DNA from: Dactylosporangium siamense
GTDB lineage: Bacteria; Actinomycetota; Actinomycetes; Mycobacteriales; Micromonosporaceae
Length of the DNA stretch: 64,000 bases
Assembly (NCBI RefSeq): GCF_016862795.1
Contig: NZ_BONQ01000081.1
Location: forward strand, 124,001-188,000
Direction of reading: 5' to 3'
The translations under genes were made by a program, and so were the position numbers. This document shows positions 25,654 to 59,928 of the stretch, one piece after another (within the stretch, counting starts at the first letter, position 1; every line of letters starts with the position of its first letter). The notes below the pieces were generated by a model. The model had not been told where the DNA came from. It did no database searches and saw only the letters and a list, made by a program, of their open reading frames with translations.

Positions 25654-25682
25654 CACCGTTGCGGTCCAGCAGGAGGTCAAAC

Positions 25683-28783: not shown

Positions 28784-30793
28784 TTGTCATCACAACCCGT
28801 CGGCGTGCTGCGCCGCCTCCTACCCGCGCTCTTCGTCCTCGTCCTCGTCGGTGGGCTGTATGCCTTCGCGCGACTGCCGTCCGCGTCGGCCGAGGACCGC
28901 GCCGCGATGGCGTCGCGGTTCAGCTTCACCGAGCTGCCCATCGCGCTGCCGCCGGGGCTGCCACAGCAGAGCGTCCGTAAGGTCAACCCGAAGTACGAAC
29001 ACATCCAGTCGTGGATCTCCTCCGTCGGCGCCGCCATCGCGGTCAACGACATCGACGACGACGGCACCGCCAACGATCTGTGCCTGGTGGACACCCGCAG
29101 CGACGAGGCCATCGTCACGCCGGCCCCGGACAGCGGCGCCACCTACCAGCCCTTCGTCCTCAACCCCGCGCCGCTGCCGATGGGCCCGGCCATCGCGCCG
29201 ATGGGCTGCACGCCCGGCGACTTCAACAGCGACGGTCGGATGGACCTGCTGGTCAACTACTGGGGCCGCACCCCGGTGCTGTACCTGCACCGCCAGGACG
29301 CGACCGCACTCGATCTGGCGGCCTTCCACCCGGTCGAACTGGTGCCGCAGGCCGAGACGGCCGACGGGATCTACCACGGTCCACTGTGGAACACCAACGC
29401 CACGGCGGTCGCCGACTTCGACGGTGACGGGCACCCGGACATCGGCGTGTTCAACTACTTCCCGGACACCCAGATCCTCGACCCGCAGGGCCTGCCGAAC
29501 GTGCAGATGAACCACTCGATGTCCCGCGCCCAGAACGCCGGCGGCGCGCACGTGCTGCGCTTCAAGTCCGCCACCAGCGGCGCCACCCCGTCGGTGACCT
29601 ACGAGGAGCAGGTGGCCCTCGACCCGCGCTACGCCAGCGGCTGGACCCTCGCCGCGGCCTCCGCGGACCTCGACGGCGACCTGCTGCCCGAGCTGTACCT
29701 GGCCAACGACTTCGGCAACGACCGCTTCTTCCACAACACCTCCAAGCCCGGCCGCATCAGCTTCGAGCTCGCCGAGGGCCGGCGCGGGCCGCTGACCCCG
29801 AAGTCGCTCGTGGTGGGCCACGACTCGTTCAAGGGCATGGCGATCGACTTCGCCGACCTCGAGGGCACCGGCCGTTTCGACATGTTCGTCTCCAACATCA
29901 CCCAGGAATGGGGCCTGGAGGAGAGCAACATGGTCTGGCACAACAACGCGGCCACCCCCGCCGACGCTCGCAAGAAGCTGGAGGACGGCGTCGCGCCGTT
30001 CGACAACAAGGCCGCGTCGATGAACCTGGCCTGGGTCGGCTGGGGCTGGGACGCGAAGATGGCCGACTTCGACAACAGCGGCCGGCTGTCCATCGTGCAG
30101 ACGTGCGGCTTCGTCAAGGGCGACATCAACCGGTTCAACTGGCTGCAGGAGCTCGCGATGAGCAACGACCTGATGCTGCAGGAGCCGGACATGTGGCCGA
30201 AGGCGGTGCCCGGCGACGACATCTCCGGCTCCAACCCGATGGCGTTCTGGGTCCGCGAGGACAACGGCCGCTACGTCGACCTCAGCCCGGAGCTCGGGTT
30301 CGGCGTCAACACGCCCACCCGCGGCGTGGCCGTCGCCGACACCAACGCCGACGGCGGGCAGGACTTCGCCGTCGCGCGGCAGTGGGCCGCACCGGTGTAC
30401 TACCGCAACGGCAAGGCCGGCAACGACAACTTCCTCGGCCTGCGCCTGTACCGGCCGGCCTCGAACACGCCCGCCGGTGCCACCGGCACGGCTGAGGGCA
30501 CGGCCACCGACGGCGCGGGCAGTCCAGGCACCCCCGCCTACGGCGCGCAGGTCCGGATCGTCACCGCCGACGGCCGCACGCAGGTCGCGCAGGTCGACGG
30601 CGGCGGCGGCCACGCCGGTCGGCGCAGCCTCGACGTCTTCTTCGGCCTCGGCACCGCCGGCTCGAAGCCCGTCTCGGCCGAGCTGAGCTGGCGCGACACC
30701 AGCGGCGCCACCCACCGGCAGACGTTGGACCTGGACGCGGGCTGGCACGACCTCATGCTGACCGATCAAGCCCGGAAGGTGCAGTCGTCATGA
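28784..30793 (+). CDS. unbV: UnbV / E4-type protein with FG-GAP repeats and ASPIC/UnbV domain
   Basis: 669 residues if the TTG at 28784 is used; GAGGGGGA lies four bases upstream, and the predicted N-terminal anchor helix (LLPALFVLVLVGGLYAF, residues 12-28) then lies at the usual distance. An upstream ATG at 28586 would add an unlikely polar tail. At least seven calcium-type DxDxDG repeats follow (DIDDDGTAND, DFNSDGRMD, DFDGDGHPD, DTNADGGQD and others), then a C-terminal ASPIC/UnbV module. One of the five conserved enediyne genes; an extracytoplasmic beta-propeller of unknown function. Stop overlaps unbU. Confidence 0.92.
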   Translation: MSSQPVGVLRRLLPALFVLVLVGGLYAFARLPSASAEDRAAMASRFSFTELPIALPPGLPQQSVRKVNPKYEHIQSWISSVGAAIAVNDIDDDGTANDLCLVDTRSDEAIVTPAPDSGATYQPFVLNPAPLPMGPAIAPMGCTPGDFNSDGRMDLLVNYWGRTPVLYLHRQDATALDLAAFHPVELVPQAETADGIYHGPLWNTNATAVADFDGDGHPDIGVFNYFPDTQILDPQGLPNVQMNHSMSRAQNAGGAHVLRFKSATSGATPSVTYEEQVALDPRYASGWTLAAASADLDGDLLPELYLANDFGNDRFFHNTSKPGRISFELAEGRRGPLTPKSLVVGHDSFKGMAIDFADLEGTGRFDMFVSNITQEWGLEESNMVWHNNAATPADARKKLEDGVAPFDNKAASMNLAWVGWGWDAKMADFDNSGRLSIVQTCGFVKGDINRFNWLQELAMSNDLMLQEPDMWPKAVPGDDISGSNPMAFWVREDNGRYVDLSPELGFGVNTPTRGVAVADTNADGGQDFAVARQWAAPVYYRNGKAGNDNFLGLRLYRPASNTPAGATGTAEGTATDGAGSPGTPAYGAQVRIVTADGRTQVAQVDGGGGHAGRRSLDVFFGLGTAGSKPVSAELSWRDTSGATHRQTLDLDAGWHDLMLTDQARKVQSS

Positions 30794-34324: not shown

Positions 34325-34732
34325 ATGACCACCGAAGTCACGACCAGCCAGACCGATCAGGCCGCCGTCGCCGCCGTCCCGCAGCGCGTCGTCACGGCGT
34401 GGGCCGCGCAGGACGCGGACGCCTTCGCCGACGTGTTCACCGCCGACGGGACAATGATCCTGCCCGGCCAGTACCTCAAGGGCCGCGACGACATCAACGC
34501 CTTCATGAGCAAGGCTTTCGCCGGTCCCTACCTCGGCACCCGGGTGACGGGGGAGCCGCTGGACCTGAGAGTGCGCGACAACCTGGCGGTCATCGTCACC
34601 TACGGCGGTGTGCTCGCCTCGGGCGACACCGAGGTGAGCGACGCGCAGGCCATCCGCGCGACCTGGGTCGTCGTCAAGGAGGACGACGGGCAATGGCGCC
34701 TGGCCGCGTACCAGAACAGCCCGGCCAACTGA
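34325..34732 (+). CDS. SgcJ/EcaC-family NTF2-like protein
   Basis: 135 residues from an ATG at 34325. One SnoaL/NTF2-like cone: AAVPQRVVTAWAAQDADAFADVFTADGTMILPG, YLKGRDDINAFMSKAF, and a final DDGQWRLAAYQNSPA. It matches the SgcJ family required for the C-1027 core and found with NCS-Orf16 in neocarzinostatin; those proteins have a buried putative active site and are proposed to act on the polyene with the PKS-associated enzymes. Its presence argues for a nine-membered core. It starts the run of sugar genes, 10 bases before the next ATG. Confidence 0.88.
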   Translation: MTTEVTTSQTDQAAVAAVPQRVVTAWAAQDADAFADVFTADGTMILPGQYLKGRDDINAFMSKAFAGPYLGTRVTGEPLDLRVRDNLAVIVTYGGVLASGDTEVSDAQAIRATWVVVKEDDGQWRLAAYQNSPAN

Positions 34733-34742: not shown

Positions 34743-36125
34743 ATGGCCACCGAGATCCTGCTTGAGGCGCGCGAGGACGGCGAGCTGCCCGGCCGGTTCG
34801 CCCGCTCGGCCGCCGCCACGTCAGGCGTGTCCCTGCGGACCGCCGACGTGCCGGAGTGGTTCGCGCAACGCCGCCGGGCCCACGAGTTCCGGGTCCGGCG
34901 GATCCCGTTCGCCCAACTCGACCGCTGGGACTTCGACCAGGAGACCGGAAACCTCCGGCACCGCACCGGCCGCTTCTTCACCATCGAAGGACTGGCGGTC
35001 AGCGCCGCCGACGACCCGACGCCCATCTGGCAGCAGCCCATCATCGTGCAGCCGGAGATCGGGATCCTCGGCATCCTGGCCAAGGAGTTCAACGGCATCC
35101 TGCACTTCCTGATGCAGGCGAAGATGGAGCCCGGCAACACCAACCTGCTCCAGCTCTCGCCGACCGTGCAGGCCACGCACAGCAACTACACCGGTGTGCA
35201 CGACGGCGCCCCGGTCCGCTACCTCGACTACTTCACCCAGCTCGACCGGCACCGGGTGCTGGCCGACGTCCTGCAGTCCGAGCACGGCTCGTGGTTCTTC
35301 CAGAAGTCCAACCGCAACATGATCGTCGAGACCGACGACGACGTGCCGCTGGACGACGACTTCCGCTGGTTGACACTGGGCCAGATCGGGGAGCTGTTCC
35401 GGCGGGACAACGTCGTCAACATGGACGCCCGCACGGTGCTCGCCTGCGCGCCCACCGTCCACGACGAGGCCGGCGCGCTGGACTCCGACACCGGCCTGCT
35501 GTCGTGGCTGACCACCGAGCGGTCCCGGCAGCGCATCCGCGCGGCGCTCGTGCCGCTGGACGGGCTGGACGGGTGGACCCGCAGCGACACCGAGCTGGAC
35601 CACCACCGTGAACACTACTTCCGGGTGGTGGCGGTGGCGGTCGAGGCCGGCAACCGCGAGGTGACGGCCTGGACGCAGCCGCTGATCGAGCCGGACGGTC
35701 CGGGGGTGCACGCGTTCCTGTGCCGCTCCTTCGGCGGGGTGCCGCACCTGCTGGTCAACGCTCGGGCCGAGGGCGGGCTGCTGGACGCGGTCGAGCTCGG
35801 CCCCACGGTGCAGTGCCAGCCGGCGTATCACGTCGATCCGCTCACCGGGCAGCGCTCGCCCTTCCTGGACGCCGTCCTGCGGGCCGAACCGGAGCGGATC
35901 CTCTACGCCGCCCGGCACTGCGAGGAGGGCGGCCGGTTCCTGCGGGCCGAGAGCCGGTACATGGTCGTGGAGGCCGACGAGCACGAGGCACCGACGGAGC
36001 CGCCGGCCGGCTACCGCTGGGTGACCCCCGGGCAGCTGGCCTCCCTCGCCCGATACAGCCGATACGTCAACGTGCAGGCCCGGACCCTGCTCGCCGTCAT
36101 CAACACCGGTGCCGTGCGGTTCTGA
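34743..36125 (+). CDS. NDP-hexose 2,3-dehydratase
   Basis: 460 residues made of two similar halves, as usual for the TylCVI/EvaA family: FRVRRIPFAQLDRWDF ... EPGNTNLLQLSPTVQATHSNYT in the first and YFRVVAVAVEAG ... LDAVELGPTVQCQPAY in the second, with paired 'W/R..t.gQ...L.r....vN..ar' ends (LGQIGELFRRDNVVNMDART and PGQLASLARYSRYVNVQART). It removes the C-2 oxygen of TDP-4-keto-6-deoxyglucose to make the 3,4-diketo sugar. ATG at 34743, directly after the SgcJ-type gene; first enzyme of the deoxysugar run. Confidence 0.93.
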   Translation: MATEILLEAREDGELPGRFARSAAATSGVSLRTADVPEWFAQRRRAHEFRVRRIPFAQLDRWDFDQETGNLRHRTGRFFTIEGLAVSAADDPTPIWQQPIIVQPEIGILGILAKEFNGILHFLMQAKMEPGNTNLLQLSPTVQATHSNYTGVHDGAPVRYLDYFTQLDRHRVLADVLQSEHGSWFFQKSNRNMIVETDDDVPLDDDFRWLTLGQIGELFRRDNVVNMDARTVLACAPTVHDEAGALDSDTGLLSWLTTERSRQRIRAALVPLDGLDGWTRSDTELDHHREHYFRVVAVAVEAGNREVTAWTQPLIEPDGPGVHAFLCRSFGGVPHLLVNARAEGGLLDAVELGPTVQCQPAYHVDPLTGQRSPFLDAVLRAEPERILYAARHCEEGGRFLRAESRYMVVEADEHEAPTEPPAGYRWVTPGQLASLARYSRYVNVQARTLLAVINTGAVRF

Positions 36126-36148
36126 CCGCCATCACGGAGGGACACGCG

Positions 36149-37378
36149 ATGTCGACTGAGCATGCGGTGGGGGTGCCGCACACCGCGGAGGGGCGCGCGC
36201 TGCTCGACCTGATCGGGCCGCACCTGGCCAGAATCCGGGCCGAGGCGGGGGAGCACGACGAACGGTCGGCGTTTCCCGTCGAGACGTTCGCCGCGTTCGC
36301 CAAGGACGGACTGATGGGTGCGACCGTGCCGGCCGAGCTCGGCGGGCTGGGCGTCACCCGGCTGCACGACGTGGCGACCGGGCTGGCCGCCGTCGCCGCA
36401 GCCGACGCGGCGACCGCGTTGGCCTGGCACGTCCAGCTCAGCCGGGGCCTCACGCTCACCTGGGAGTGGCGCCACGGCGAGCCGCCGGTCCGGCGGCTGG
36501 CCGAGTCGTTGCTGCGGTCCATGGCGGGCGGCGAGGCCGCGATCTGCGGCGCCGTGAAGGACCACCCCGGCACCGTCACCACGCTCAGCCGGGACGCCGC
36601 CGGCCGGTGGTCGCTGTCGGGGCGCAAGATGCTGGTCAGCATGGCGCCGGTCGCGACCCATTTCGTCGTGCACGCGCAGACCCGGGTCGACGGCGAGGCG
36701 ATGCTGACCGTGGTCGTCCTGCCCCGGGACACGCCGGGCCTCGCCGTGCTGGAGGACTGGAACGGCCTGGGCATGCGCGCCTCCGGCACGTGCGACGTCG
36801 CGTTCGACGACTGCCCGGTGGCCGAGGACGCGATCCTGTCCCGCCGGCCGGTCGGGGCCCACAACGACGCGGTCCTGGCCGGCCAGACGGTCAGCTCGGT
36901 CACGATGCTGGGCATCTACTGCGGGATCGCGCAGGAGGCCCGGGACATCGCGGTGCGCCGGCTCGCCGGCGGGTCCGGCGAACCGCCGGCCGCGACGGTC
37001 ACGCTCCTGGCCGAGATCGAGTCGCGGTTGTACGCGATGCGTGCCACGTCGGGAGCGGCGCTCGCCGCCGCCCAGGACGACGGCACGGGCGGCGACCCGG
37101 CCGAACGGGGACGGCGGATGATGACCCCGTTCCAGTGCGCCAAGATGACCGTCAACCAGCTGTCGCTCGGCATCGTCAACGACAGCGTCACGATCGTCGG
37201 CGGCGCGGCCTACACGGCCACGCATCCGCTCGCCCGCCTCGTCCGGGACGTGCGCGCGGGCTGGTTCATGCAGCCCTACTCGTACCCCGACGGCGTCAGC
37301 TACCTCACCGCCCAGGCGTTGCAACGCCGGCGCGACAACGACTACGTCAGCGCCCGGGCAGTCACCGATCAGCGTTAG
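36149..37378 (+). CDS. amino-sugar nitrososynthase (flavin N-oxygenase, DnmZ/KijD3/ORF36 type)
   Basis: 409 residues with acyl-CoA-dehydrogenase fold. It matches my recollection of DnmZ, KijD3, RubN8 and ORF36 along its whole length: GRALLDLIGPHL, GATVPAELGGLGVTRLHDVA, SRGLTLTWEWRHG, AICGAVKDHPG, LVSMAPVATHFVVHA, VLEDWNGLGMRASGTCDVAFD, AGQTVSSVTMLGIYCGIAQEA, MMTPFQCAKMTVN and VRAGWFMQPYSYPDGVSYLT. These enzymes use reduced flavin and O2 to oxidise a TDP-3-amino-3-C-methyl sugar through hydroxylamine to nitroso, which becomes the nitro group. ATG at 36149 after ACGGAGGG. A general acyl-CoA dehydrogenase is excluded mainly by these motifs and the sugar-gene context. Confidence 0.88.
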   Translation: MSTEHAVGVPHTAEGRALLDLIGPHLARIRAEAGEHDERSAFPVETFAAFAKDGLMGATVPAELGGLGVTRLHDVATGLAAVAAADAATALAWHVQLSRGLTLTWEWRHGEPPVRRLAESLLRSMAGGEAAICGAVKDHPGTVTTLSRDAAGRWSLSGRKMLVSMAPVATHFVVHAQTRVDGEAMLTVVVLPRDTPGLAVLEDWNGLGMRASGTCDVAFDDCPVAEDAILSRRPVGAHNDAVLAGQTVSSVTMLGIYCGIAQEARDIAVRRLAGGSGEPPAATVTLLAEIESRLYAMRATSGAALAAAQDDGTGGDPAERGRRMMTPFQCAKMTVNQLSLGIVNDSVTIVGGAAYTATHPLARLVRDVRAGWFMQPYSYPDGVSYLTAQALQRRRDNDYVSARAVTDQR

Positions 37379-37386
37379 GAGTGCCC

Positions 37387-38607
37387 ATGCCCCCCATCTG
37401 CCAGATCTGCGACGGCGCGGTCGAGGAGTTCCTGGACCTCGGCCGCCAGCCGCTGTCCGACGCGTTCCTGACCGAGCAGGACCTCGCCGGCGAGTTCTTC
37501 TACCGGCTCGCGGTCGGTGTCTGCCGGTCGTGCACGATGGTGCAGCTGGTCGAGCAGGTGCCGCGCGATCTGATGTTCCACGAGGACTACCCGTACTACT
37601 CGTCCGGCTCCTCGGTGATGCGGGAGCACTTCGAGACGACCGCGCGCGCCCTGCTGGCCCGCTGCGCGGATGAGCCCGACCCGTTCGTGGTCGAGATCGG
37701 TAGCAACGACGGCGTGCTGTTGAAGACGGTCAAGGCCGCGGGTGTACGGCATCTGGGGTTCGAGCCGTCGGGCAAGGTGGCCGCGGCCGCGGCGGAGCAC
37801 GGGGTCCGCGTGCTGACTGACTTCTTCGACGCCGAGAGCGCGGCGGCGGTACAGCACAACGACGGCCCGGCCGACGTCATCTTCGCCGCCAACACCATCT
37901 GCCACATCCCGTACATGCGCTCGATCCTCGAGGGCGTGGACCGGCTGCTCGCCGCCGACGGGATCTTCGTCTTCGAGGACCCGTACTTCGGCGACATCGT
38001 GGCCAAGACGTCGTTCGACCAGATCTACGACGAGCATTTCTTCTTCTTCACCGCCCGGTCCGTCCAGGCGATGGTGGCCGGCTTCGGCCTGGAGCTCGTT
38101 GACGTCGAGCGGCTGCCGGTGCACGGCGGCGAGGTCCGCTACACGATCGCCCGGGCCGGCGCGCGGCCGCCGTCGGACGCGGTCGGCGCCCTGATCGAGG
38201 CGGAGCGGGCCCAGGGCCTGGCGGACCTGGTGACGCTGCGGCGGTTCGCGGCCGACACCGCCCGGGTCCGGGCCGATCTGCAGGCGCTGCTGCGGCGGCT
38301 GCGGGAGGAGGGCCAGCAGGTCGTCGGGTACGGCGCCACGGCCAAGAGCGCGACGGTGACCAACTTCTGCGGCATCGACAGCGACCTGGTCTCGTTCGTG
38401 TGCGACACGACGCCGGCCAAACAGGGTCGCCTGACGCCCGGCACCCACATCCCGGTCCGGCCGGCGGAGGCGTTCGCCGACCCGTACCCGCCGTACGCGC
38501 TGCTGTTCGCCTGGAACCACGCGGACGAGATCATGGCCAAGGAGCAGGGGTTCCGCGAGTCGGGCGGTCGCTGGATCCAGTACGTGCCCGAAGTCCACGT
38601 CAGCTGA
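37387..38607 (+). CDS. sugar C-3 methyltransferase (TylCIII/EvaC type)
   Basis: 406 residues. N-terminal zinc-binding part (CQICDGAVEE ... GVCRSCTMVQLV, two CxxC pairs), SAM motif VVEIGSNDGVLLKTVKAAG near residue 103, the EDPYFGDIVAKTSFDQIYDEHFFFF loop read as family core, and a C-terminal Rossmann-like domain (VVGYGATAKSATVTNFCGI). The family methylates C-3 of TDP-3-amino-4-keto or 4-keto-2,6-dideoxy sugars, giving branched sugars. ATG at 37387 chosen over the GTG at 37381 because of GGAG spacing. It overlaps functionally with the nitrososynthase, whose substrates are C-3 methylated. Confidence 0.93.
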   Translation: MPPICQICDGAVEEFLDLGRQPLSDAFLTEQDLAGEFFYRLAVGVCRSCTMVQLVEQVPRDLMFHEDYPYYSSGSSVMREHFETTARALLARCADEPDPFVVEIGSNDGVLLKTVKAAGVRHLGFEPSGKVAAAAAEHGVRVLTDFFDAESAAAVQHNDGPADVIFAANTICHIPYMRSILEGVDRLLAADGIFVFEDPYFGDIVAKTSFDQIYDEHFFFFTARSVQAMVAGFGLELVDVERLPVHGGEVRYTIARAGARPPSDAVGALIEAERAQGLADLVTLRRFAADTARVRADLQALLRRLREEGQQVVGYGATAKSATVTNFCGIDSDLVSFVCDTTPAKQGRLTPGTHIPVRPAEAFADPYPPYALLFAWNHADEIMAKEQGFRESGGRWIQYVPEVHVS

Positions 38608-38618
38608 ATGGATCGATC

Positions 38619-39221
38619 ATGTCGGAGCAGGTGCGGGAGCTCGGGGTCGGCGGCGCGTTCGCGTTCACCATGGTGGCCTTCCCGGACGATCGCGGCGTCT
38701 TCCTGTCGCCTTACCAGGAGGCGGTGTTCGTCGAGGTGCTCGGCCGCCCGCTCTTCCCGGTGGCCCAGTGCAGCTACAGCGTGTCCCGTCGCGGCGTGGT
38801 CCGGGGTGTGCACTTCACGGCCACCCCGCCGGGCACGGCCAAGTACGTCTACTGCGCGCGGGGCAAGGTGCTCGACATCGTCGTGGACCTGCGCGTGGGC
38901 AGTCCCACGTTCGGCGCCCACGACGCGGTGGTGCTGGGCGACGTGGACACCTGCGCGCTGTACCTGCCGGTCGGTGTCGGGCACACGTTCGTCGCGCTCG
39001 AGGACGACTCGGTGATGACCTACCTGCTCTCGACCGAGTACCGGCGGGAGAACGAGCTCGCCGTGTCCGCCCTGGATCCGGCGCTGGGACTGCCGTTGCC
39101 GCCGGACATCACGCCGGTGCTGTCCGAACGGGACCGCGAGGCACCGGCGCTGGCCGAGGCCCTGGCGGCCGGGATCCTGCCGGACTACGAGCGCAGCCGC
39201 GGCATCACCCAGGCGCTCTGA
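38619..39221 (+). CDS. TDP-4-keto-hexose 3,5- or 5-epimerase
   Basis: 200 residues, cupin-fold RmlC/EvaD family. VVRGVHFTATPPGTAKYVYC contains the catalytic His (the 'RG.H' motif), and VGVGHTFVALEDDSVMTYLLSTEY closes the barrel. Sugar-pathway members usually epimerise C-5 only, giving L-configured sugars. ATG at 38619, 11 bases after the C-methyltransferase stop. Substrate order is inferred from the pathway. Confidence 0.92.
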   Translation: MSEQVRELGVGGAFAFTMVAFPDDRGVFLSPYQEAVFVEVLGRPLFPVAQCSYSVSRRGVVRGVHFTATPPGTAKYVYCARGKVLDIVVDLRVGSPTFGAHDAVVLGDVDTCALYLPVGVGHTFVALEDDSVMTYLLSTEYRRENELAVSALDPALGLPLPPDITPVLSERDREAPALAEALAAGILPDYERSRGITQAL

Positions 39222-39245
39222 CGCGGGCGGGGACGGCACAGGGCC

Positions 39246-40178
39246 TCACGCGAGGACCTTGACGGTGCGGCGCAGCGCCTCGGCCAGCGGCACCAGCGGC
39301 CGCCACCCGGTGGCCGAGCGGAACGCGGACGCGTCGACCACCATGCTGTGCGCGTCCGTCGCCGCCGTGCCCGGCGGGGGCGGCACGGACAGGACCGGCA
39401 CCGCGGGCCGGCCGGTGTGCCCGGCGACGACCCCGGCGATCGCGCCGAAGAGCTCCCGCAGGCTCACGCCGACCCCGGTGCCGAGCGGGTAGCTCCGGCC
39501 GGCCAGCATGTCGGCGTGGTCGAGGGCGGCCACGAAGGCCTCGGCGGTGTCGTCGACGTAGAGCAGGTCGCGCTGGACGGCGCCGTCGGCCCACACCGTG
39601 AGCGGCTCGCCGGCCAGTGCCTTGCGCATCATCGCCGCCACGACGCCGCGATCCTGCGCGGATCCGCCGAAGATCGTCGGCAGGCGCAGGGTGACACCGC
39701 GGACGAGACCGTCGGCGGTGGCCGCGCGGAGCAGCTCCTCGGCGGCGAGCTTCTGCCGGTCGTAGGCGGTCGCCGGCCGGTCGGGCTCGGTGCCGTCGAT
39801 CGGCACCCGCGGGGGCGGACCGACCTGCGAGGTGGAGCCGGCGAACACCACCACCGGCCGTGATCCGTCACGCCGGGCCCGGACGACGTCGTGCAGGACG
39901 CCCACGTTGGTGCGCCCGCTGTCCGGGTCGTCGTCCGCGCCGCGCCAACCCGACTCGTGCAGGACCAGGTGGACGACCGCGTCCGCGCCGGCGACGGCCG
40001 CCTCGACGGCGTCCGGCTCGGTGAGGTCGGCCGTGACGGTCTCGATCTCGGCGACCGCGCCGGGCGGGAGCGCGGCCGGTCGGCGGGCGACCGCGCGCAG
40101 CCGGATCGGACGGCGGGCCAGCGCCGCCGTCACCGCCGAGCCGACAAATCCCGACGCGCCGAGCACAGTGACGTTCAT
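39246..40178 (-). CDS. TDP-4-keto-deoxyhexose 4-ketoreductase
   Basis: 310 residues, an extended SDR. VTVLGASGFVGSAV (NADP-binding, residues 3-16), VVFAGSTSQVG, YDRQKLAAEELL with the catalytic YxxxK, and RDLLYVDDTAEAFV are present. It resembles EvaE/TylCIV reductases that set the C-4 hydroxyl. It is the only sugar gene on the minus strand, inserted convergent to the epimerase gene (25 bases between stops) and divergent from rmlA (148 bases). A 4,6-dehydratase is unlikely because the 'T-D-x-x-Y' motif of RmlB is absent (STSQVG here). Confidence 0.88.
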   Translation of the reverse strand: MNVTVLGASGFVGSAVTAALARRPIRLRAVARRPAALPPGAVAEIETVTADLTEPDAVEAAVAGADAVVHLVLHESGWRGADDDPDSGRTNVGVLHDVVRARRDGSRPVVVFAGSTSQVGPPPRVPIDGTEPDRPATAYDRQKLAAEELLRAATADGLVRGVTLRLPTIFGGSAQDRGVVAAMMRKALAGEPLTVWADGAVQRDLLYVDDTAEAFVAALDHADMLAGRSYPLGTGVGVSLRELFGAIAGVVAGHTGRPAVPVLSVPPPPGTAATDAHSMVVDASAFRSATGWRPLVPLAEALRRTVKVLA

Positions 40179-40325
40179 CGGCCAACTGTGCCGGTCCGCG
40201 CGGCCACCGGCATCTCCCGGATTGCGCAGCCGCTGACGCAACACCGCAATACCGGAGATCGCCGGCGGGCCGGGACCGATGAGACTGGGATGAGCGGCGA
40301 CCCAACGCCGAGGAACGGAGCTGGC

Positions 40326-41198
40326 ATGAAAGGGATCGTTCTGGCCGGCGGCACGGGCAGCCGGCTGTTCCCGTTGACCCGGGCCATGTCCAAGCAGCTG
40401 CTGTCGGTCTACAACAAGCCGTTGGTCTACTACCCGCTGTCCGTGCTGATGCTGTCCGGGATCCGCGACATCCTCGTCATCTCGACGCCGTCCACGGTGC
40501 CGCTGCTGCGCGCCCTGCTCGGCGACGGCTCCCAGCTCGGCATCCGGCTGTCCTACGCCGTGCAGGACGAGCCGCGCGGCATCGCCGACGCCTTCCGCAT
40601 CGGCGCCGACCACGTCGGCGACGACGACGTGGCGCTGATCCTGGGCGACAACCTGTTCCACGGCGCCGGATTCGCCCGGCGGCTGCAGGAGTGCGCGGCG
40701 GCGCCGGACGGGTGCACGCTGTTCGGCTACCCGGTGTCCGACCCTGAGCGCTACGGCATCGGCGAGGTCGACGGCGACGGCATGCTCGTGTCCATCGAGG
40801 AGAAGCCGTTGCGGCCGCGGGCCAACAACGCCATCACCGGGCTCTACTTCTACGACAACGAGGTCGTCGACATCAGCCGCCGGATCACCCCGTCGGCCCG
40901 CGGTGAACTGGAGATCACCGACGTCAACCGCGAATACCTCAAGCAGGGCCGGGCCCGGCTGATCCGGTTGAGCCGCGGCAACACCTGGTTCGACTGCGGC
41001 ACCCACGACTCGCTGCTCGCGGCCGGCCAGTACGTCCAGGTCATCGAGCAGCGGCAGGGCGTGCGGGTGGCGTGTCTGGAGGAGATCGCGCTGCGGATGG
41101 GTTTCATCGACGCCGACGCGTGCTACCGGCTGGGGGAGCAGATGCGCCAGTCGGACTACGGCCGCTACCTGACCGAGATCGCGTACGCCCTGGACTGA
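40326..41198 (+). CDS. rmlA: glucose-1-phosphate thymidylyltransferase
   Basis: 290 residues. GIVLAGGTGSRLFPLTRAMSKQLL (nucleotide-binding signature, residues 3-26), YYPLSVLML, LILGDNLFHG, GEVDGDGMLVSIEEKP, NAITGLYFYDN and NTWFDCGTHDSLLAA are all classical RmlA. It makes TDP-glucose from glucose-1-phosphate, the entry to the deoxysugar pathway. ATG at 40326. It begins a rightward run 40326-45738. The partner 4,6-dehydratase (rmlB) is not in this window. Confidence 0.96.
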   Translation: MKGIVLAGGTGSRLFPLTRAMSKQLLSVYNKPLVYYPLSVLMLSGIRDILVISTPSTVPLLRALLGDGSQLGIRLSYAVQDEPRGIADAFRIGADHVGDDDVALILGDNLFHGAGFARRLQECAAAPDGCTLFGYPVSDPERYGIGEVDGDGMLVSIEEKPLRPRANNAITGLYFYDNEVVDISRRITPSARGELEITDVNREYLKQGRARLIRLSRGNTWFDCGTHDSLLAAGQYVQVIEQRQGVRVACLEEIALRMGFIDADACYRLGEQMRQSDYGRYLTEIAYALD

Positions 41199-41212
41199 CC
41201 GAGGAGTCGAGC

Positions 41213-42145
41213 ATGCACACGGAACGGTACGGCGGCAGTCCGCTGTGGGAGGCGTATCACCGGACCCGCGTCACCAAGGAGGCGAGCGTCGCCCTCGACG
41301 GGTTCAAGTCCAGCGGCGTCAACTTCAAGCTCGCGCTCTGGAACCCGCAGACCAACGGGGTCCGCTACCTCAAGGCACTCATCCACAACGTCGCCGGGCA
41401 GCTCGACGACGCCGGCTGGGAGCGGCTGCGGCGCATCCGGGGGCGCGAGACGGGCGCGCCGATCGCGGTCCGCACGCACGGCGAGCTCGTCGACATGGAC
41501 TATCTGCAGGCGGTGCTGGAGCTGGACTTCCTGGGCCGGCACGCCACCCTGGACGGGGCCTCGGTGCTGGAGATCGGCGCCGGATACGGCCGGACCTGCC
41601 ACGCGGTGCTGGCCAACCACGACGTCGCCGCCTACGCCGTCGTGGACCTGGAGAACTCCCTCGACCTGGCCCGCGCCTACCTGCGGGCGGTGCTCGACGA
41701 CGACCAGTTGGCGAAGGTGGCGTTCATCCGGGCCGAGGACGTCGAACGTGAACTGGCCGGTGACCGTTTCGACCTGTGCCTCAACATCGACTCGTTCGCC
41801 GAGATGGACCCCGAGGTGGTCGGCAACTACCTGGCCCTCATCGCCGGGCGGTGCGACGGCTTCTACGTCAAGAACCCGGTCGGCAAGTACCTCGACCCGA
41901 GCCTCGACGGGCACGCCGAGGGCCAGGACCTGGTGGCGATGGCGTTGCGGACCGGCCCGGTGCGCGACGTGATCGACATCCACGACAGCGAGGCGGTCCG
42001 CCGGCAGTCGGCCCGGTTCCTCGAGGCCTACCGCCCGGCGGAGGGCTGGCGCGCGGTCGCCGACGAGTGGGCGCCGCCGTGGAGCTACTACTGGCAGGCC
42101 CTGTACCGCACGGCAGAAGGTGCCCCGATTGATCCGCGGATGTGA
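41213..42145 (+). CDS. putative sugar O-methyltransferase (NanM-like)
   Basis: 310 residues from an ATG at 41213 with GAGGAG seven bases before. SAM motif [20 protein letters not shown] near residues 118-137; preceding [19 protein letters not shown] and following [25 protein letters not shown] and [12 protein letters not shown] are typical of the 'putative sugar O-methyltransferase' group including NanM. In an evernitrose-like pathway this would be the 4-O-methyltransferase; the position methylated is inferred. Placed between rmlA and the aminotransferase. Confidence 0.82.
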
Positions 42146-42182
42146 ATCTGAGGAGGTGCTCCGATCGTTGGGAGAAACATCG

Positions 42183-43304
42183 ATGACCACTCGTGTATGG
42201 AGTTATCTGCCGGAGTTCGAGGCCGAGCGGGCCGACATCCTCGACGCGGTCGAGACCGTGTTCCGGTCCGGTCAGCTCGTGCTCGGCGCGAGCGTGCGGC
42301 AGTTCGAGGAGGAGTTCGCCCGATATCACGGCGGCGGCCTCTGCACCGGCGTCGACAACGGCACCAACGCGGTCAAGCTCGGCCTGCAGGCGCTCGGCGT
42401 CGGCCCGGGCGACGAGGTGATCACCGTGTCCAACACGGCGGCGCCGACCGTGGTGGCGATCGACGGGGCCGGCGCGACCCCGGTCTTCGTGGACATCCGC
42501 GAGGACGACTACCTCATGGACACCGATCAGGTCGCGGCGGTGGTCACCGACCGGACCAGGGCGATCGTGCCCGTGCACCTGTACGGCCAGTGCGTCGACA
42601 TGGCGCCGCTGCGGCGGCTGGCCGACGAGCGCGGGCTGAAGATCCTGGAGGACTGCGCCCAGGCGCACGGCGCCCGCCACCACGGCCGCCCGGCCGGCAC
42701 GATGGGCGACGCCGCCGCGTACTCCTTCTACCCGACCAAGGTGCTCGGCGCGTACGGCGACGGCGGCGCGGTCCTCACCCACGACGCGGAAGCCGACCGC
42801 AACCTGCGCCGGCTGCGGTACTACGGGATGGAGGACGTCTACTACGTCGTCCGCACGCCCGGGCACAACAGCCGCCTCGACGAGGTGCAGGCGGAGATCC
42901 TGCGGCGCAAGCTGGAGCGCCTCGACGACTACATCGCGGCCCGCAACGCCGTCGCCGAGCGCTACGCGAAGGGCCTGTCCGACCTCGCCACCTCCGGCGG
43001 GCTCGTCCTGCCGGCCACCACCGCGGGCAACGAGCACGTCTACTACCTCTACGTCGTGCGCCACCCGCGCCGCGACGACATCATCGAGCGGCTCAAGACG
43101 CACGACATCGAACTGAACATCAGCTACCCCTGGCCGGTGCACACGATGAGTGGCTTCCAGCACCTCGGGTACGGCCCCGGCTCCCTGCCGGTGACCGAGC
43201 GCCTCGCCGCGGAGATCTTCTCGCTGCCGATGTATCCGGCGCTGTCCACCGACGAGCAGGACCGCACGATCGCCGCCCTGCACGAGGTCATCGCGAGTCT
43301 CTAG
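42183..43304 (+). CDS. PLP-dependent sugar C-3 aminotransferase (DegT/DnrJ/EryC1 family)
   Basis: 373 residues. [55 protein letters not shown] (PLP-binding Asp), [19 protein letters not shown] with the PLP lysine, and [16 protein letters not shown]. Closest pattern is EvaB/TylB-like enzymes that install the 3-amino group on 3-keto-deoxysugars, which fits the downstream nitrososynthase need for a 3-amino substrate. ATG at 42183, with GGGAGA seven bases upstream. Confidence 0.93.
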
Positions 43305-43381: not shown

Positions 43382-44566
43382 ATGGGGACCACCACGACCA
43401 TCCCGGCCCGTGCGGAGCTGCTGCAGCGGGCGCGAGACCTGGCCCCGGTGTTGCGCCGCAACGCCGAGTGGCAGGAGGAGAACCGCCGACTGCACGACGA
43501 GACCGTCGAGGCGCTCACCGCCGCCGGCATCCTGCGGATGCGCCGGCCGCACCGCTACGGCGGCTTCGAGTCCGACCTGCGCACCGTCGTCGACGTGCTG
43601 TCCGAGCTCGGCCGGGCGGACGGCTCGACCGCATGGACCGCCGGGGTCTGGATGATCAGCAGCTGGATGGCCGGGCTGTTCCCCGACGAGGTGCAGGACG
43701 AGATCTTCGACGCCCCGGACGTGCGCGTCAGCGGCATCCTCAGCCCCGGTGCGATCGCGGTGCCGACCGACGGCGGGGTGATCCTCAACGGCAAGTGGTC
43801 CTTCAACACCGGCGCGTTGCAGAGCACCTGGAACACCAACGCCGCGGTGCTGGACGGCCCGGACGGTCCCCAGCCGGTCATGGTCGCCCTGCCGATGGCC
43901 GACCTGAAGATCGTCGACGACTGGCACACCGCCGGCCTGCGCGGCTCGGGCAGCGTGACCACGATCGCCGAGAACCTGTTCGTCCCGCAGGCCCGCGTCC
44001 TGCCGATGGTCCCGATCCTGCAGGAGGGGCGGCACGCCTCGCTGGCCAACGCCGACGCGCCGATCTACCGGGTGCCGTTCATGTCGGCCGCCTGCGTGAC
44101 GGTGAGCGCCCCCGCGCTGGGGCTGGCCCAGGGCGCCAAGGAGGCGTTCCTGGAACGGCTCCCCGGCCGGAAGATCACCTACACCGACTACGCCAACCAG
44201 AGCGAGGCGCCGATCACCCACCTGCAGGTGGCCGACGCGACCGTGAAGATCGACGAGGCCGGCTTCCACGCCTACCGGGCGGCCGACCTGGTCGACGCGC
44301 ACGGCGAGGCCGGCGAGCCGATGACGCTCGAGGAGCGGGCCCGCGTCCGGCTCGACCTGGGTGCGGTCTGCCAGCGGGCCAAGGAGGCGGTCGACCTGTT
44401 GAACACGGCCAGCGGCGGCTCGTCCATCTACACCAACGTGCCGATCCAGCGCATCGAACGCGACGTCCAGACGGTCAACCTGCACGCCATCATGCACCCC
44501 AACACCAACCTGGAGCTCTACGGCCGGCTCGTGTGCGGCCTCGGACCCAACACCCTCTACCTCTGA
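43382..44566 (+). CDS. group-D flavin-dependent monooxygenase (acyl-CoA dehydrogenase type-2 C-terminus)
   Basis: 394 residues from an ATG at 43382 after GGAGG. Features: [71 protein letters not shown] and a C-terminal helical part ([21 protein letters not shown]). These are hallmarks of HsaA/ActVA-type hydroxylases that take reduced FMN/FAD from a separate reductase. The flavin reductase at 25683 is the only candidate partner in the window. Substrate: an aromatic or polyketide group, not determined. No adjacent acyl-CoA metabolism genes support a dehydrogenase. Confidence 0.85.
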
Positions 44567-44577
44567 GAGGCAGCCGT

Positions 44578-45797: not shown

Positions 45798-47186
45798 TCA
45801 GTTGCTCGCGGACCGGGCGGGCACCGGCGGCACGGCGGGGGACGGGCTGCCGGCGGTGCCGCTGAAGAACGAGCGCAGCACGCGCAGAAGGTTGCGGGGG
45901 TGCAGCAGCGCCTGGGGCGGGTCGATGAGGCCGGCCGCCCGGATGAAGGCGTTGGTGAGCACCGCGTCGTGCACCGCGGCGAGCTGGAGGCGGGCCACGT
46001 AGGCGTTGATGACCTTCGTCTTGAGGGTCCGCCGTCCCTCGACGCCGGCGTAGGCGAGGTCGGCCCCGGCCGACAACGCCCACGGCTGGCCGATGTCCCC
46101 GGCGATGTCGCGCAGGAAGGCCAGCGGCTGCGGCAGGCCGCGTCGCAGGTGCTTGGCGAGGGTGAGCGACTCGATCGCCGCCACCGTCATGCCCTGCGCG
46201 TACAACGGGTTGAAGCTGCAGACGGCGTCGCCCATGACCAGCAGGCCGGCCGGGAAGCGCGGCATCCGCTCGTAGTGCCGCCACACGCTGGCCGGGAACC
46301 GGAACATCACCGGCTCGTCGAGCGGCTCGGCGTCCCGGACGGCCTCGTAGATCTGCGGCACCGGCAGCGAGCGGGCGAACTCCAGGAACCCCTCGGGGTC
46401 CGTCGGCGGGTGGTCACCGAGCATCCCGGTCAGCGAGAGCTCGACCTTGCCCTCGCCCGGGACCCGGTAGAAGAACGCGCCCCGGGGATGCTGCGGCGTC
46501 GGCGCGGGGATGATGGCCAGGTCGTCGCCGAAGGGGTCGTGGTCGAGCCGGAAGTGCCGGGTGGTGTACGCCAGGTCGATCCTGACCCGCTCCTCCGGCG
46601 GCCGGCCGTATCCGAGTTCGTCGAGCCACGCCGGTGTGCGTGAGCCCCGCCCGGTCGTGTCGATCACCAGGTCGGCCCGCAGTATGCGCGGCTCCTGAGC
46701 GTCGTCGCGGGGCTGCACGCGCACCCCGGTCACGCGGGCGCTGTCCGCGGTGGTGGCCAGGCCGAGGATGTCGTGCCGTTGCAGGAAGGTCAGGTTGGGG
46801 ATCTGCTGGACCCGCAGGCGGAGCTGCTCCTCGAGCACGGGACGCGTCGCCGGGACCGACAGCAGCCCCGACGTCGACGGCTGCAGCCGGGCGCCGTTGA
46901 TGTACCAGCGGATGTCGCCGTTGAAGTCGCCCGGTTTCACGCCCGCGGCGACCATCTGGTCGGTGAGCCCCGGGAACTGTGCCTCCAGGATCTGGTGGCC
47001 CCGCGCCACGAGCCCGTGCGCGTGCCGGCCGTGCGGGACGCCGCGGCGTGCGGCGCTCGCACCGATCAGGTCGTCGCGGTCCACTAGCACGACGCTGGTG
47101 AACGCCGGTGCGAGCACCTTGGCCGCCAGGAGCCCGGCGATGCCACCGCCGAGCACGACGGCCTGCTCACCCACGTGTGTGTTCAA
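45798..47186 (-). CDS. FAD-dependent monooxygenase/epoxidase (MonCI/Lsd18-like)
   Basis: 462 residues. FAD motif AVVLGGGIAGLLAAKVL at residues 9-25, ARRGVPHGRHAHGL, LVIDTTGRGSRTP, and LVMGDAVCSFNPLYAQGMTVAA binding the FAD phosphate. This pattern matches the polyether epoxidases and related squalene-monooxygenase-like enzymes; halogenase is unlikely as the WxWxIP motif is absent. A good candidate to make the epoxide that the two hydrolases open. Start at a TTG (47186) after GGAGGGC; a GTG at 47174 is an alternative. It overlaps the upstream hydrolase by 20 bases, last gene of a leftward three-gene operon. Confidence 0.82.
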   Translation of the reverse strand: MNTHVGEQAVVLGGGIAGLLAAKVLAPAFTSVVLVDRDDLIGASAARRGVPHGRHAHGLVARGHQILEAQFPGLTDQMVAAGVKPGDFNGDIRWYINGARLQPSTSGLLSVPATRPVLEEQLRLRVQQIPNLTFLQRHDILGLATTADSARVTGVRVQPRDDAQEPRILRADLVIDTTGRGSRTPAWLDELGYGRPPEERVRIDLAYTTRHFRLDHDPFGDDLAIIPAPTPQHPRGAFFYRVPGEGKVELSLTGMLGDHPPTDPEGFLEFARSLPVPQIYEAVRDAEPLDEPVMFRFPASVWRHYERMPRFPAGLLVMGDAVCSFNPLYAQGMTVAAIESLTLAKHLRRGLPQPLAFLRDIAGDIGQPWALSAGADLAYAGVEGRRTLKTKVINAYVARLQLAAVHDAVLTNAFIRAAGLIDPPQALLHPRNLLRVLRSFFSGTAGSPSPAVPPVPARSASN

Positions 47187-48306
47187 CGGTCTGCCCTCCT
47201 AGGGTGCGGGCGAAGTCGACGACTGACCGCACGTACAGTTCCGGGACCTCGAGCGCGGGGAAGTGGCCGCCGCGGTCGTGTTCGTCCCAGCGGGTGATGC
47301 TCGGATACGCCCGCTCGGCCAGTTTCCGCACGGGCAGGAAGCAGTCGCACGGGAACACCGCGACGCCGATCGGGACGGTGACCGCCGGCGGCGGGCCGTC
47401 CGCCGCCCGCTGCAGCCGCTCCACCTCGTAGTACATCTGCGCCGAGGAGCCGATCGCGCCGGGCAGCCAGTAGAGCATGACGGTGGTCAGCAGCCGGTCC
47501 CGGTCGATCGTCCCGGCGCCCGGCCCGGACCATTCGACGTACTTCTCGGCGATCCAGGCCAGCAGCCCGACCGGCGAGTCGTTCAGCCCGTACGCCGGGG
47601 TCCGCGGCCGCGTCGACAGCAGCTTGAGGTAGCCCATGCCGTCGGCGTCGAACCGCCCGAGGCCGGCCAGCCGCTGCCGGTCCTCGTCGTCGAGCCCGGC
47701 CAACTCCTCCAGGTCTCCGGACGGGAACACGGCCAGGAAGTTGACGTGCGCGCCGAGGACCCGTTCCGGTGCGATGCGCGCGATGTCCAGGGAGATGAAC
47801 GAACCCCAGTCACCGCCTTGGACCACGAACCGCTCGTAGCCGAGCCGGTCCATCAGCTCGAGCCAGGCCCGCGCGACCCGTGGGATGTCCCAACCCGGTT
47901 CGGTCAGGGGCGTCGAGAACCCGTACCCCGGGATCGACGCGATGACCACGTGGAAGCCTTCGGCGTTCAGCGGCCCGACGACGTCGAGGAACTCCGCGAG
48001 CGAGCCGGGCCAGCCGGAGGTGATGAGGATCGGGACCGCGTCCGGCGCCGACGAGGGGGAGTGTACGAAGTGGACGGTCGCGCCGTCGATCCCGGTCAGG
48101 TACTGGGGGAGCCGGTTGAGCTCGTCCTGGGCGGCGGACCAGTCGTACCTGTGGAGCCAGTGCTCGGCAAGCTCCCGCAGGTAGGCCTCGGGCACGCCGC
48201 GATCCCAGTCGTCCCCGCCGGCCTGCCGCACCCACCGGGTGCCGGCGATGCGCCGGTGCAGGTCGGCGAGCTCCGCCGGGTCGACATCGATCTTGAACGG
48301 TTCCAT
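47167..48306 (-). CDS. epoxide hydrolase, copy 2, with altered oxyanion motif
   Basis: 379 residues, similar throughout to copy 1. EHN part (PFKIDVDPAELADLHRRI), nucleophile Asp166 in QGGDWG, and the His of DRGGHFPALE are intact. The oxyanion motif, normally HGWP, reads SGWP with Ser97 in place of His, aligned to His97 of copy 1. Nine-membered clusters may carry two such enzymes (NcsF1/NcsF2). ATG at 48306 overlaps the stop of the BBE-like gene (ATGA). Activity could be retained, altered in stereochemistry, or lost; sequence does not tell. Confidence 0.9.
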   Translation of the reverse strand: MEPFKIDVDPAELADLHRRIAGTRWVRQAGGDDWDRGVPEAYLRELAEHWLHRYDWSAAQDELNRLPQYLTGIDGATVHFVHSPSSAPDAVPILITSGWPGSLAEFLDVVGPLNAEGFHVVIASIPGYGFSTPLTEPGWDIPRVARAWLELMDRLGYERFVVQGGDWGSFISLDIARIAPERVLGAHVNFLAVFPSGDLEELAGLDDEDRQRLAGLGRFDADGMGYLKLLSTRPRTPAYGLNDSPVGLLAWIAEKYVEWSGPGAGTIDRDRLLTTVMLYWLPGAIGSSAQMYYEVERLQRAADGPPPAVTVPIGVAVFPCDCFLPVRKLAERAYPSITRWDEHDRGGHFPALEVPELYVRSVVDFARTLGGQTVEHTRG

Positions 48307-49898: not shown

Positions 49899-50076
49899 AT
49901 CGGAGGCTCTCCCTCACTGATGATCGGAGTCACTCGACGCAATCATTTCCGCGAATGCGATCAGGCTCCACTTCAAACGTGCCCAGTTGTCGCGGGCAAC
50001 GCCGCACGTTCGAGGAACCGCCGTAGCGGTTCCCGTCGATACGCTCGGGCAATTACGCCTGTGCATGGAGGTACTC

Positions 50077-57000: not shown

Positions 57001-57012
57001 GCCGACCCACTC

Positions 57013-59823: not shown

Positions 59824-59928
59824 ACGTTCGAGGGTAGGTCCGGTTGCGCCGATAGTCAAGTAAGTGCTTAAGTGTTGGGTACGGGTGCGCTGAGCAGGTT
59901 GATTCGACCAAAGATTGCGAGGCACCTC

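Follow-up and report, generated by a model that had tools for sequence, protein, structure and literature searches.

The pathways closest to the locus described here are those for nitrosugars and those for enediynes. The nitrososynthase ORF36, a sugar N-oxygenase, is encoded in Micromonospora sp. ATCC 39149 (locus L011, whose sequence sits at zero branch length to PDB entry 3mxl in a 43-row tree), which we take to be the everninomicin producer, with evernitrose as the sugar concerned. The everninomicin aglycone is an orthosomycin and not an enediyne. A related enzyme, KijD3, belongs to the D-kijanose pathway (KijD1-KijD3) of kijanimicin and lobophorin (loci L024 and L027). Calicheamicin and esperamicin are enediynes that bear an N-oxidised sugar; their core is ten-membered, the sugar is a 4-hydroxylamino sugar without a 3-C-methyl group, and in calicheamicin the N-oxidation is carried out by a P450. 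The nine-membered compounds C-1027, neocarzinostatin, kedarcidin, maduropeptin and amycolamycin carry amino or neutral sugars, and none of their pathways is known to use a nitrososynthase. In the accessible text of the sources concerned, the maduropeptin sugar is a C-methylated 4-aminopentose, kijanose is a D-sugar that takes a 4-amino carbamate, a role for KijD3 in the kijanose sugar steps is proposed (all PMC10951976), and amycolamycin carries an aminosugar (PMC8037709). Here we compare with these systems a window of 64,000 nucleotides from Dactylosporangium siamense (contig NZ_BONQ01000081.1 of assembly GCF_016862795.1), in which a predicted nitrososynthase gene at 36149-37378 lies within a sugar cassette (34743-43304) and among genes of the enediyne type. 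We consider it probable that this enediyne cluster, most likely of the nine-membered kind, combines an evernitrose-type sugar cassette with one glycosyltransferase that would attach that sugar.

The initial annotation, made without database searches, had attributed the protein encoded at 36149-37378 to the DnmZ/KijD3/RubN8/ORF36 type of flavoprotein, and comparison with crystallised enzymes bears this out. In a phmmer search of the PDB it reaches 518 bits to ORF36 (3mxl), 498 bits to KijD3 (3m9v; likewise 498 to 4kcf) and 402 bits to DnmZ (4zxv), whereas the next-best distinct sequence, an acyl-CoA-dehydrogenase-type protein, scores 86 bits. A chance match is excluded because the best E-value to a crystallised nitrososynthase is 1e-154. 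Over the alignment the protein is 66% identical to ORF36, 61% to KijD3 and 53% to DnmZ, and it shares 153 of the 184 columns that are identical across these three characterised enzymes. Signature columns of the family (39) were defined as those at least 97% conserved in 37 family rows, identical in ORF36, KijD3 and DnmZ, and with the letter absent from an outgroup of four rows of the acyl-CoA dehydrogenase (ACAD) type; the 37 rows include the three characterised enzymes and leave out the window protein and L045. The family letter is kept in 37 of the 39 columns, among them all 28 in which the outgroup has a letter (it is all gaps in the other 11). In a quick tree of 43 rows the protein falls within a 21-row set that includes ORF36 and KijD3, with the DnmZ group outside, at a Shimodaira-Hasegawa-like approximate likelihood-ratio test (SH-aLRT) value of 98; this value comes from the quick tree, and in a careful nitrososynthase tree of 15 rows the deep branching of the groups is unsettled. 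With the protein placed beside ORF36 and KijD3 in this tree, the counter-case named in the initial annotation, a flavoprotein outside the nitrososynthase clade, does not apply. By its sequence, the protein is confirmed as a sugar nitrososynthase. ACAD domains are present in it (Pfam), as would be expected if it were an ordinary acyl-CoA dehydrogenase or an HsaA-type hydroxylase. However, 13 NCBIfam models for ACAD-type enzymes and hydroxylases all stay well under their cut-offs (best 87 against 600), the HsaA-type enzyme of the window is a separate gene (43382-44566), and, given the gap between 86 and 518 bits, an acyl-CoA dehydrogenase identity was dismissed; we regard such an ordinary flavoenzyme as vanishingly improbable.

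Around the nitrososynthase gene, the open reading frames (ORFs) lie at the places and in the order first named, and the listed RmlA, 2,3-dehydratase, aminotransferase, C-methyltransferase, epimerase, ketoreductase and O-methyltransferase were all found again by domain or PDB matches (Table 1). An evernitrose-type set of seven (2,3-dehydratase, 3-aminotransferase, 3-C-methyltransferase, 5-epimerase, 4-ketoreductase, nitrososynthase and 4-O-methyltransferase) is contained entirely in 34743-43304, and the genes for a 3-amino-3-C-methyl thymidine diphosphate (TDP)-sugar substrate adjoin the nitrososynthase. For the C-methyltransferase the top PDB match is 5t6b (named 'Sugar 3-C-methyl transferase'; 648 bits), presumably KijD1, followed by TcaB9 with 637 bits, after which scores drop to 290 bits (D-mycarose 3-C-methyltransferase); both KijD1 and TcaB9 we take to be nitrosugar-pathway enzymes. 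The epimerase is closest to 1ofn (PCZA361.16; 258 bits), which we assume to be EvaD of the vancosamine pathway, followed by NovW (172 bits), with 169 bits to the best entry named dTDP-4-dehydrorhamnose 3,5-epimerase; from this EvaD-type epimerase an L-sugar is predicted. For the aminotransferase, the best PDB match is 7b0d (298 bits), named a scyllo-inositol transaminase. With 274 bits to 2oga and 266 bits to QdtB, presumably both 3-aminotransferases, versus 145 bits to 2po3 (DesI), presumably a 4-aminotransferase, it appears to be nearer to the 3- than to the 4-aminotransferases. The regio- and stereochemistry of each sugar enzyme would be that of its relatives. At the DNA level, a search of a plasmid collection with the sugar region gave partial matches only, none covering more than 19% of the query; they are to other sugar genes, for instance in S. 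clavuligerus.

Much of this set also surrounds ORF36. In the everninomicin locus the nitrososynthase (65% identity to that of the window in the locus comparison) lies inside 6.3 kb together with five neighbours, namely the aminotransferase (72%), the C-methyltransferase (71%), the epimerase (63%) and, both at 61%, the ketoreductase and the O-methyltransferase. Because five sugar genes match the neighbours of ORF36 at 61-72%, the window is read as holding the evernitrose set, which agrees with the evernitrose-like gene set proposed at the outset. Unlike the window, the everninomicin locus has no 2,3-dehydratase match within 10 kb (six of the seven pathway genes are there), no orthologue of the glycosyltransferase (best match 30%) and no match to an enediyne gene in 21 kb. 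The D-kijanose locus L024 resembles the window in its nitrososynthase (61%), aminotransferase (79%) and C-methyltransferase (71%), but its ketoreductase and epimerase matches are at 26% and 45%, and the O-methyltransferase is unmatched.

Hence, we hypothesize that the cassette makes a sugar predicted to be TDP-2,3,6-trideoxy-3-C-methyl-4-O-methyl-3-nitroso/nitro-L-hexose. RmlA together with a housekeeping RmlB would give TDP-4-keto-6-deoxyglucose, from which the 2,3-dehydratase would form a 3,4-diketo sugar. C3 would receive an amino group from the aminotransferase and then a methyl group from the KijD1-type enzyme, the EvaD-type epimerase would invert C5 to give the L-series and the SDR would reduce C4. 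With reduced flavin from a reductase such as that at 25668-26180, the nitrososynthase would convert the 3-amine to the hydroxylamine and on to the nitroso group, which may proceed to nitro. The O-methyltransferase would cap O4, and the EryCIII/DesVII-type glycosyltransferase would load the sugar onto the enediyne core. This scheme is a prediction as regards the order of the reactions, the stereochemistry, the oxidation level, the point of attachment, the ring size and even the formation of a product.

To judge from its gene content, the region 34743-43304 sits in an enediyne biosynthetic cluster, as had been claimed initially and as the synthase, the thioesterase, the epoxide hydrolase and the comparison with an annotated Streptomyces plasmid enediyne cluster (L098) attest. 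A search of the genome found a single synthase of this kind (1387 bits against 177 for the next); the query, the first 620 codons of the ORF from 18896, includes about 150 residues upstream of the true start. Since a DUF1702 gene of its own occupies 18393-19343, we place that start near 19364 and not at 18896. Stop codons met with this query in two relatives (L062 and L066) may stem from the extra stretch and are given no weight. The best match of the thioesterase, 4i4j, is presumably SgcE10. In a reverse search with the 23 proteins of L098 against the window and its flanks, 18 were matched: the synthase, thioesterase, flavin reductase, P450, AraC-type regulator (two matches), DUF5987 protein, GMC oxidoreductase, DUF1702 pair, CRTAC1/UnbV and UnbU-like proteins, a carboxymuconolactone-decarboxylase-type protein, TIGR03084, SgcJ, the FAD monooxygenase, BBE-type oxidoreductase and epoxide hydrolase and, weakly, an acyltransferase. 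The ParB-like protein, small helix-turn-helix protein, prephenate dehydrogenase, transposase and AMP-ligase of L098 were unmatched in the window or flanks. With the nine-membered clusters (C-1027, neocarzinostatin, kedarcidin, maduropeptin and amycolamycin) the window has in common the enediyne synthase, an SgcE10-type thioesterase and SgcJ, and further the epoxide hydrolases, the DUF1702 pair and the UnbV-like protein. The two best PDB matches of the epoxide hydrolase at 44563-45738, 5f4z and 4i19, we take to be KedF and NcsF2, and this type of epoxide hydrolase to mark nine-membered cores; together with the overall gene content, the epoxide hydrolases make a nine-membered core the most likely one. 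A further epoxide hydrolase (L051:2135-3196), 52% identical to that of L098 and 51% to the first of the window, is found on the same contig some 17 kb upstream of the window; either the cluster extends further or this is a stray paralogue. The one glycosyltransferase reported by the initial annotation is indeed present, though outside 34743-43304, at 51346-52620 on the reverse strand, and a tblastn search with it across the window and 20 kb on each side revealed no second family member (best other E-value 0.18).

The combination of nitrososynthase and enediyne genes is found elsewhere. A genome scan for the nitrososynthase gave 40 loci, of which 35 (L011-L045, 46-70% identity) were taken as nitrososynthases, the other five being at 23-27%. 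Eight genomes were checked for the synthase, their loci having been picked for enediyne-type neighbours or, for Lentzea indica (L041), for a close nitrososynthase. The synthase is present in all eight and on the nitrososynthase contig in seven, at a distance of about 15-42 kb: Microbispora amethystogenes (NBRC 101907; L012), Actinomadura sp. BRA 177 (L016), Amycolatopsis sp. CA-126428 (L019), Nocardiopsis ansamitocini (NBRC 112285; L021), Streptomyces sp. CB02056 (L030), Streptomyces griseus NCTC 13033 (L037) and Amycolatopsis saalfeldensis (DSM 44993; L043). In Lentzea indica, the synthase is on another contig, of 3 kb. These seven clusters fall in five genera (two each in Amycolatopsis and Streptomyces, one each in Actinomadura, Nocardiopsis and Microbispora), and every one contains the nitrososynthase, C-methyltransferase, epimerase, ketoreductase, O-methyltransferase, aminotransferase and glycosyltransferase. 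The nitrososynthase-enediyne combination is recurrent and not unique to D. siamense, with at least seven other clusters; the family to which each protein belongs, the clustering and the conservation of the combination in other genera are direct observations. Five control enediyne regions from Streptomyces plasmids (about 46 kb each) are all without nitrososynthase, C-methyltransferase, epimerase, O-methyltransferase and 2,3-dehydratase, and show weak matches to the aminotransferase (32%) and glycosyltransferase (37%) in S. clavuligerus and to the reductase (29%) in S. zaomyceticus. With the synthase as query, 49 records of the plasmid collection are matched at E 1e-100, several of which are nearly identical to one another, and in 42 of the 49 the identity is at least 60%; the nitrososynthase finds no match at E 1e-30 anywhere in the collection, these 49 records included.

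Other loci from the same scan differ in what surrounds the nitrososynthase. The L041 nitrososynthase locus ends at a contig edge and has gene g11492 in common with the window (68%); matches to the epoxide hydrolase and FAD monooxygenase lie near the nitrososynthase in L023 (Actinomadura sp. DC4) and L038 (Streptomyces sp. McG3), and L022 (Saccharopolyspora subtropica) gives a DUF2306 hint only. These four loci are possible further nitrosugar-enediyne clusters. In L013, L014, L026 and L044 (two from Amycolatopsis, one from Micromonospora and one from Nocardia bovistercoris) the aminotransferase, C-methyltransferase, 2,3-dehydratase, ketoreductase and O-methyltransferase accompany the nitrososynthase, but over about 10 kb there is neither an epimerase match nor a set of enediyne tailoring genes; their nitrosugars are candidates for a rubranitrose-like D-series. 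L045 (Streptomyces seoulensis) encodes a divergent relative of the nitrososynthase (46%) with no sugar-gene match within 10 kb, and this protein may have another substrate.

The sugar genes and the core genes have clearly different histories. A quick synthase tree of 14 rows, two of them short (c_ADI95 with 46% and Lentzea with 25% of columns filled), splits into two groups with support 100. Group 1 consists of Lentzea, Amycolatopsis sp. CA-126428, A. saalfeldensis, CB02056 and Nocardiopsis, and group 2 of the window, BRA 177, Microbispora, S. griseus and all five controls. In the nitrososynthase tree of 15 rows, the window is sister to Lentzea plus A. saalfeldensis, and S. griseus is joined with CB02056, each with support of 100/100. 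Constraining this tree to synthase group 1, a grouping that was taken from the synthase tree, is rejected, with a log-likelihood 192 lower and an approximately unbiased test value (p-AU) of 8e-46. Because the cassette and synthase trees differ, the cassette appears to have been exchanged between enediyne cores. Among the seven clusters, A. saalfeldensis is the best match for six of the seven sugar genes of the window (RmlA is outside these seven), versus three of 15 core and tailoring genes. By these comparisons, the sugar genes have for the most part travelled together, as one block, with respect to the enediyne core.

Several observations weigh against an evernitrose-type enediyne. The nitrososynthase deviates from the family at signature columns 309 and 387, both of them columns in which the outgroup is all gaps, and two residues are missing near 309. 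The 2,3-dehydratase, found in six of the seven other clusters, is lacking in Actinomadura BRA 177, the contig of which is no longer than 56 kb, and six clusters have no close RmlA (S. griseus has one at 64%; three clusters have matches at 33-36% and three none). No RmlB (4,6-dehydratase) was seen among the ORFs scanned, a scan that did not take in every ORF; the 'full' branched-sugar pathway of the initial annotation stands as regards the genes it named and not as regards RmlB, and the two parts of a complete TDP-sugar route with no gene seen are RmlB and an enzyme, if any, for the step from nitroso to nitro. Every control cluster comes from a Streptomyces plasmid and belongs to the same one of the two synthase groups, and the synthase was checked, and not found, in only two nitrososynthase genomes without enediyne neighbours (G006 and G012). 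On the 43-row nitrososynthase tree, with L022 and L041 left out of the count, the enediyne label shows no more clustering than chance would give (four changes, with 59 of 500 shuffles as low); because it is scattered in this way, the enediyne-linked nitrososynthases form no special subclass. The nine-membered assignment draws on epoxide hydrolases and gene content, and the diagnostic E2 gene was not identified by name. According to the rule given in the accessible text of PMC5181780, E2 is present and R3 absent in nine-membered clusters. Finally, the oxidation level of the sugar nitrogen (nitroso, nitro or hydroxylamine) is not readable from sequence.

Three other accounts of the sugar have to be weighed. 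For DnmZ in baumycin biosynthesis, the proposed mechanism is a break between C3 and C4 that is set off by a 3-nitroso group beside a free 4-hydroxyl, and by such a route the enediyne would bear a ring-opened fragment; a C-methyltransferase and an epimerase do occur in loci of the DnmZ clade as well. However, the window protein groups with ORF36 and KijD3 and not with DnmZ, and orthologues of the 4-O-methyltransferase and 4-ketoreductase are present here and in all seven sister clusters, while neither is matched within 10 kb on either side of the DnmZ-clade loci L036, L040 and L042. Since a capped O4 should also block the cleavage, ring opening is disfavoured and we think it unlikely. Oxidation might instead halt at, or revert to, the hydroxylamine, giving a hydroxylamino sugar like those of the ten-membered calicheamicin and esperamicin, and nitrososynthases do pass through a hydroxylamine. 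Yet calicheamicin relies on a P450 and not on the nitrososynthase family for N-oxidation, and ORF36 and KijD3, the closest characterised relatives, serve nitroso or nitro sugars; a hydroxylamino product seems improbable. For KijD3, that role is a proposed one in the accessible text of PMC10951976.

Two clusters might also lie side by side by accident, with the nitrosugar decorating another scaffold. Nitrososynthase genomes in which no enediyne synthase was found do exist (G006 and G012), and 28 of the 35 nitrososynthase loci are without this epoxide hydrolase type within about 10 kb on each side, though two of these, L012 and L030, carry the synthase further out. Against an accidental neighbourhood stand the seven other clusters in five further genera with rearranged gene order, the constant presence of the same type of enediyne-cluster glycosyltransferase (47-58% identity, next best 37%), and the window's contig, on which no other ketosynthase match was found at E 1e-40. 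Such an accident is quite improbable, and an enediyne carrying an evernitrose-type sugar remains the reading we prefer.

The flavin reductase at 25668-26180 scores 125 and 119 bits with the NCBIfam FerA and HsaB models, both below cut-off. The second ACAD-fold flavoprotein (43382-44566) groups with 3-HSA hydroxylase and XiaF, and an N-oxygenase function was ruled out for it. Because this HsaA-type gene was not found in the A. saalfeldensis cluster or in the ORF36 locus of Micromonospora sp. ATCC 39149, it is also unlikely to be the enzyme that takes nitroso to nitro. The gene beside the glycosyltransferase, 49987-51291, was considered as a degenerate glycosyltransferase activator (TIGR04515 137.6 bits, cut-off 343); it is left as a P450 since its heme cysteine is intact. 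Its heme motif (FGAGIYRCIG) is unusual and its I-helix stretch (LATGTEP) is without the usual acid-Thr pair; among six relatives in sister clusters the heme pattern is absent in four and the I-helix pattern in five. The HsaA-type hydroxylase, this P450 and a DUF2306 protein (52630-53400) occur in six, six and five of the seven sister clusters, respectively; among the five control regions, only that of S. finlayi gave matches, namely an HsaA piece of 28% coverage and a P450 at 27%. These three proteins may act on a shared feature of the nitrosugar-enediyne group. An acyltransferase, a fused AMP-ligase/methyltransferase, a cupin and an aldehyde dehydrogenase encoded in 53385-59018 have no close match in the seven sister clusters (best 36%) and probably provide a strain-specific acyl group.

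Table 1. Predicted features of the Dactylosporangium siamense window; positions are counted from its first nucleotide, a tilde marks approximate coordinates, and percentages are identities.
Position	Strand	Predicted feature	Evidence
5647..6660	-	Second DUF1702 enediyne protein	57% to DUF1702 of plasmid cluster L098
15906..17540	-	GMC oxidoreductase of enediyne core	75% to L098
18393..19343	+	DUF1702 enediyne protein	53% to DUF1702 of plasmid cluster L098
19364..25222	+	Enediyne polyketide synthase	63% to annotated plasmid enediyne synthase; ORF opens at 18896
25219..25653	+	Enediyne thioesterase (SgcE10/CalE7 type)	PDB phmmer: 246 bits to 4i4j ('ACP-polyene thioesterase'), 225 to CalE7, 135 to DynE7
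25668..26180	+	Flavin reductase (SgcE6-like), likely reduced-flavin supplier	58% to flavin reductase of annotated enediyne cluster
28844..30793	+	CRTAC1/UnbV family enediyne protein	PF07593, PF13517; 47% to L098
30790..31836	+	Enediyne biosynthesis protein (UnbU-like)	55% to L098 'enediyne biosynthesis protein'; no match in Pfam scan
34331..34732	+	SgcJ/EcaC family protein	TIGR02246, 118.7 bits
34743..36125	+	Nucleoside diphosphate (NDP)-hexose 2,3-dehydratase	PF03559, 517 bits
36149..37378	+	Nitrososynthase (ORF36/KijD3/DnmZ-type sugar N-oxygenase)	PDB phmmer, signature columns, tree
~37387..38607	+	Sugar 3-C-methyltransferase, KijD1/TcaB9 type	PF08421 and PF08484; PDB phmmer; start uncertain
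~38619..39221	+	Sugar 5-epimerase, EvaD type	PF00908 (RmlC-type); PDB phmmer
39246..40178	-	4-Ketoreductase (SDR)	PF01370, 157 bits; 61% to gene near ORF36
~40323..41198	+	RmlA-like sugar-1-phosphate thymidylyltransferase	PF00483, 213 bits
~41213..42145	+	Sugar O-methyltransferase, predicted 4-O-methylation	TIGR04371, 137 bits, cut-off 44
~42183..43304	+	3-Aminotransferase (DegT/DnrJ/EryC1)	PF01041; PDB phmmer
43382..44566	+	HsaA-type two-component flavin hydroxylase (second ACAD-fold flavoprotein)	HsaA model 250.6 bits, cut-off 450; PDB 2rfq 182 bits
44563..45738	+	Epoxide hydrolase, nine-membered enediyne type	PDB phmmer: 535 bits to 5f4z, 477 to 4i19, next 209
45798..47186	-	FAD-dependent monooxygenase of enediyne core	68% to L098 FAD-dependent monooxygenase
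47167..48306	-	Second epoxide hydrolase	PF06441; 52% to L098 epoxide hydrolase
48306..49898	-	BBE-type FAD oxidoreductase	PF01565, PF08031; 52% to L098
49987..51291	+	Cytochrome P450 beside glycosyltransferase	PF00067; heme Cys kept (FGAGIYRCIG)
51346..52620	-	Glycosyltransferase, EryCIII/DesVII type	PF21036, PF06722; TIGR04516 428.6 bits, just below cut-off 440
59872..61476	+	MFS exporter	PF07690, 158 bits

To our knowledge, no enediyne carries a nitroso or nitro sugar. The initial annotation had said the same, and that statement holds for the open-access literature, in which no description of a nitrosugar enediyne was found, with most subscription papers and the supplements lying outside the search; absence from print altogether is not established. 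In their accessible text, PMC6395733, PMC10951976, PMC6165268, PMC8037709 and PMC11446937 do not describe one. The words enediyne and nitrososynthase co-occur in one open-access review, in separate passages of the text available, the latter in the reference list only. A 2016 survey of 81 enediyne strains, in the part of its main text that is accessible, mentions amino sugars and contains no word beginning with 'nitro', and counts 11 enediynes structurally characterised by then (PMC5181780). The part predicted to be new is a flavin nitrososynthase route and a branched 3-nitroso or nitro sugar on an apparently nine-membered core; the novelty is limited to this route and sugar because hydroxylamino sugars are already known in calicheamicin and esperamicin.

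In a wider reading, which we regard as evenly balanced, nitroso- or nitro-sugar enediynes would be a whole undescribed chemotype in at least eight actinomycete species of six genera (seven with Lentzea), with the evernitrose cassette traded between at least two deeply separated synthase lineages and a reactive C-nitroso group possibly retained. Sequenced collection strains carry the gene combination, namely Microbispora amethystogenes NBRC 101907, Nocardiopsis ansamitocini NBRC 112285, Amycolatopsis saalfeldensis DSM 44993 and Streptomyces griseus NCTC 13033. If this reading is true, they would represent a recurring group of enediynes whose members can be recognised by one gene beside the synthase, and a C-nitroso group left on the sugar would give one molecule two chemically reactive ends. 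Because its sugar genes and core genes have clearly different histories, the group would also offer a natural experiment in the movement of a sugar cassette between aglycone pathways.

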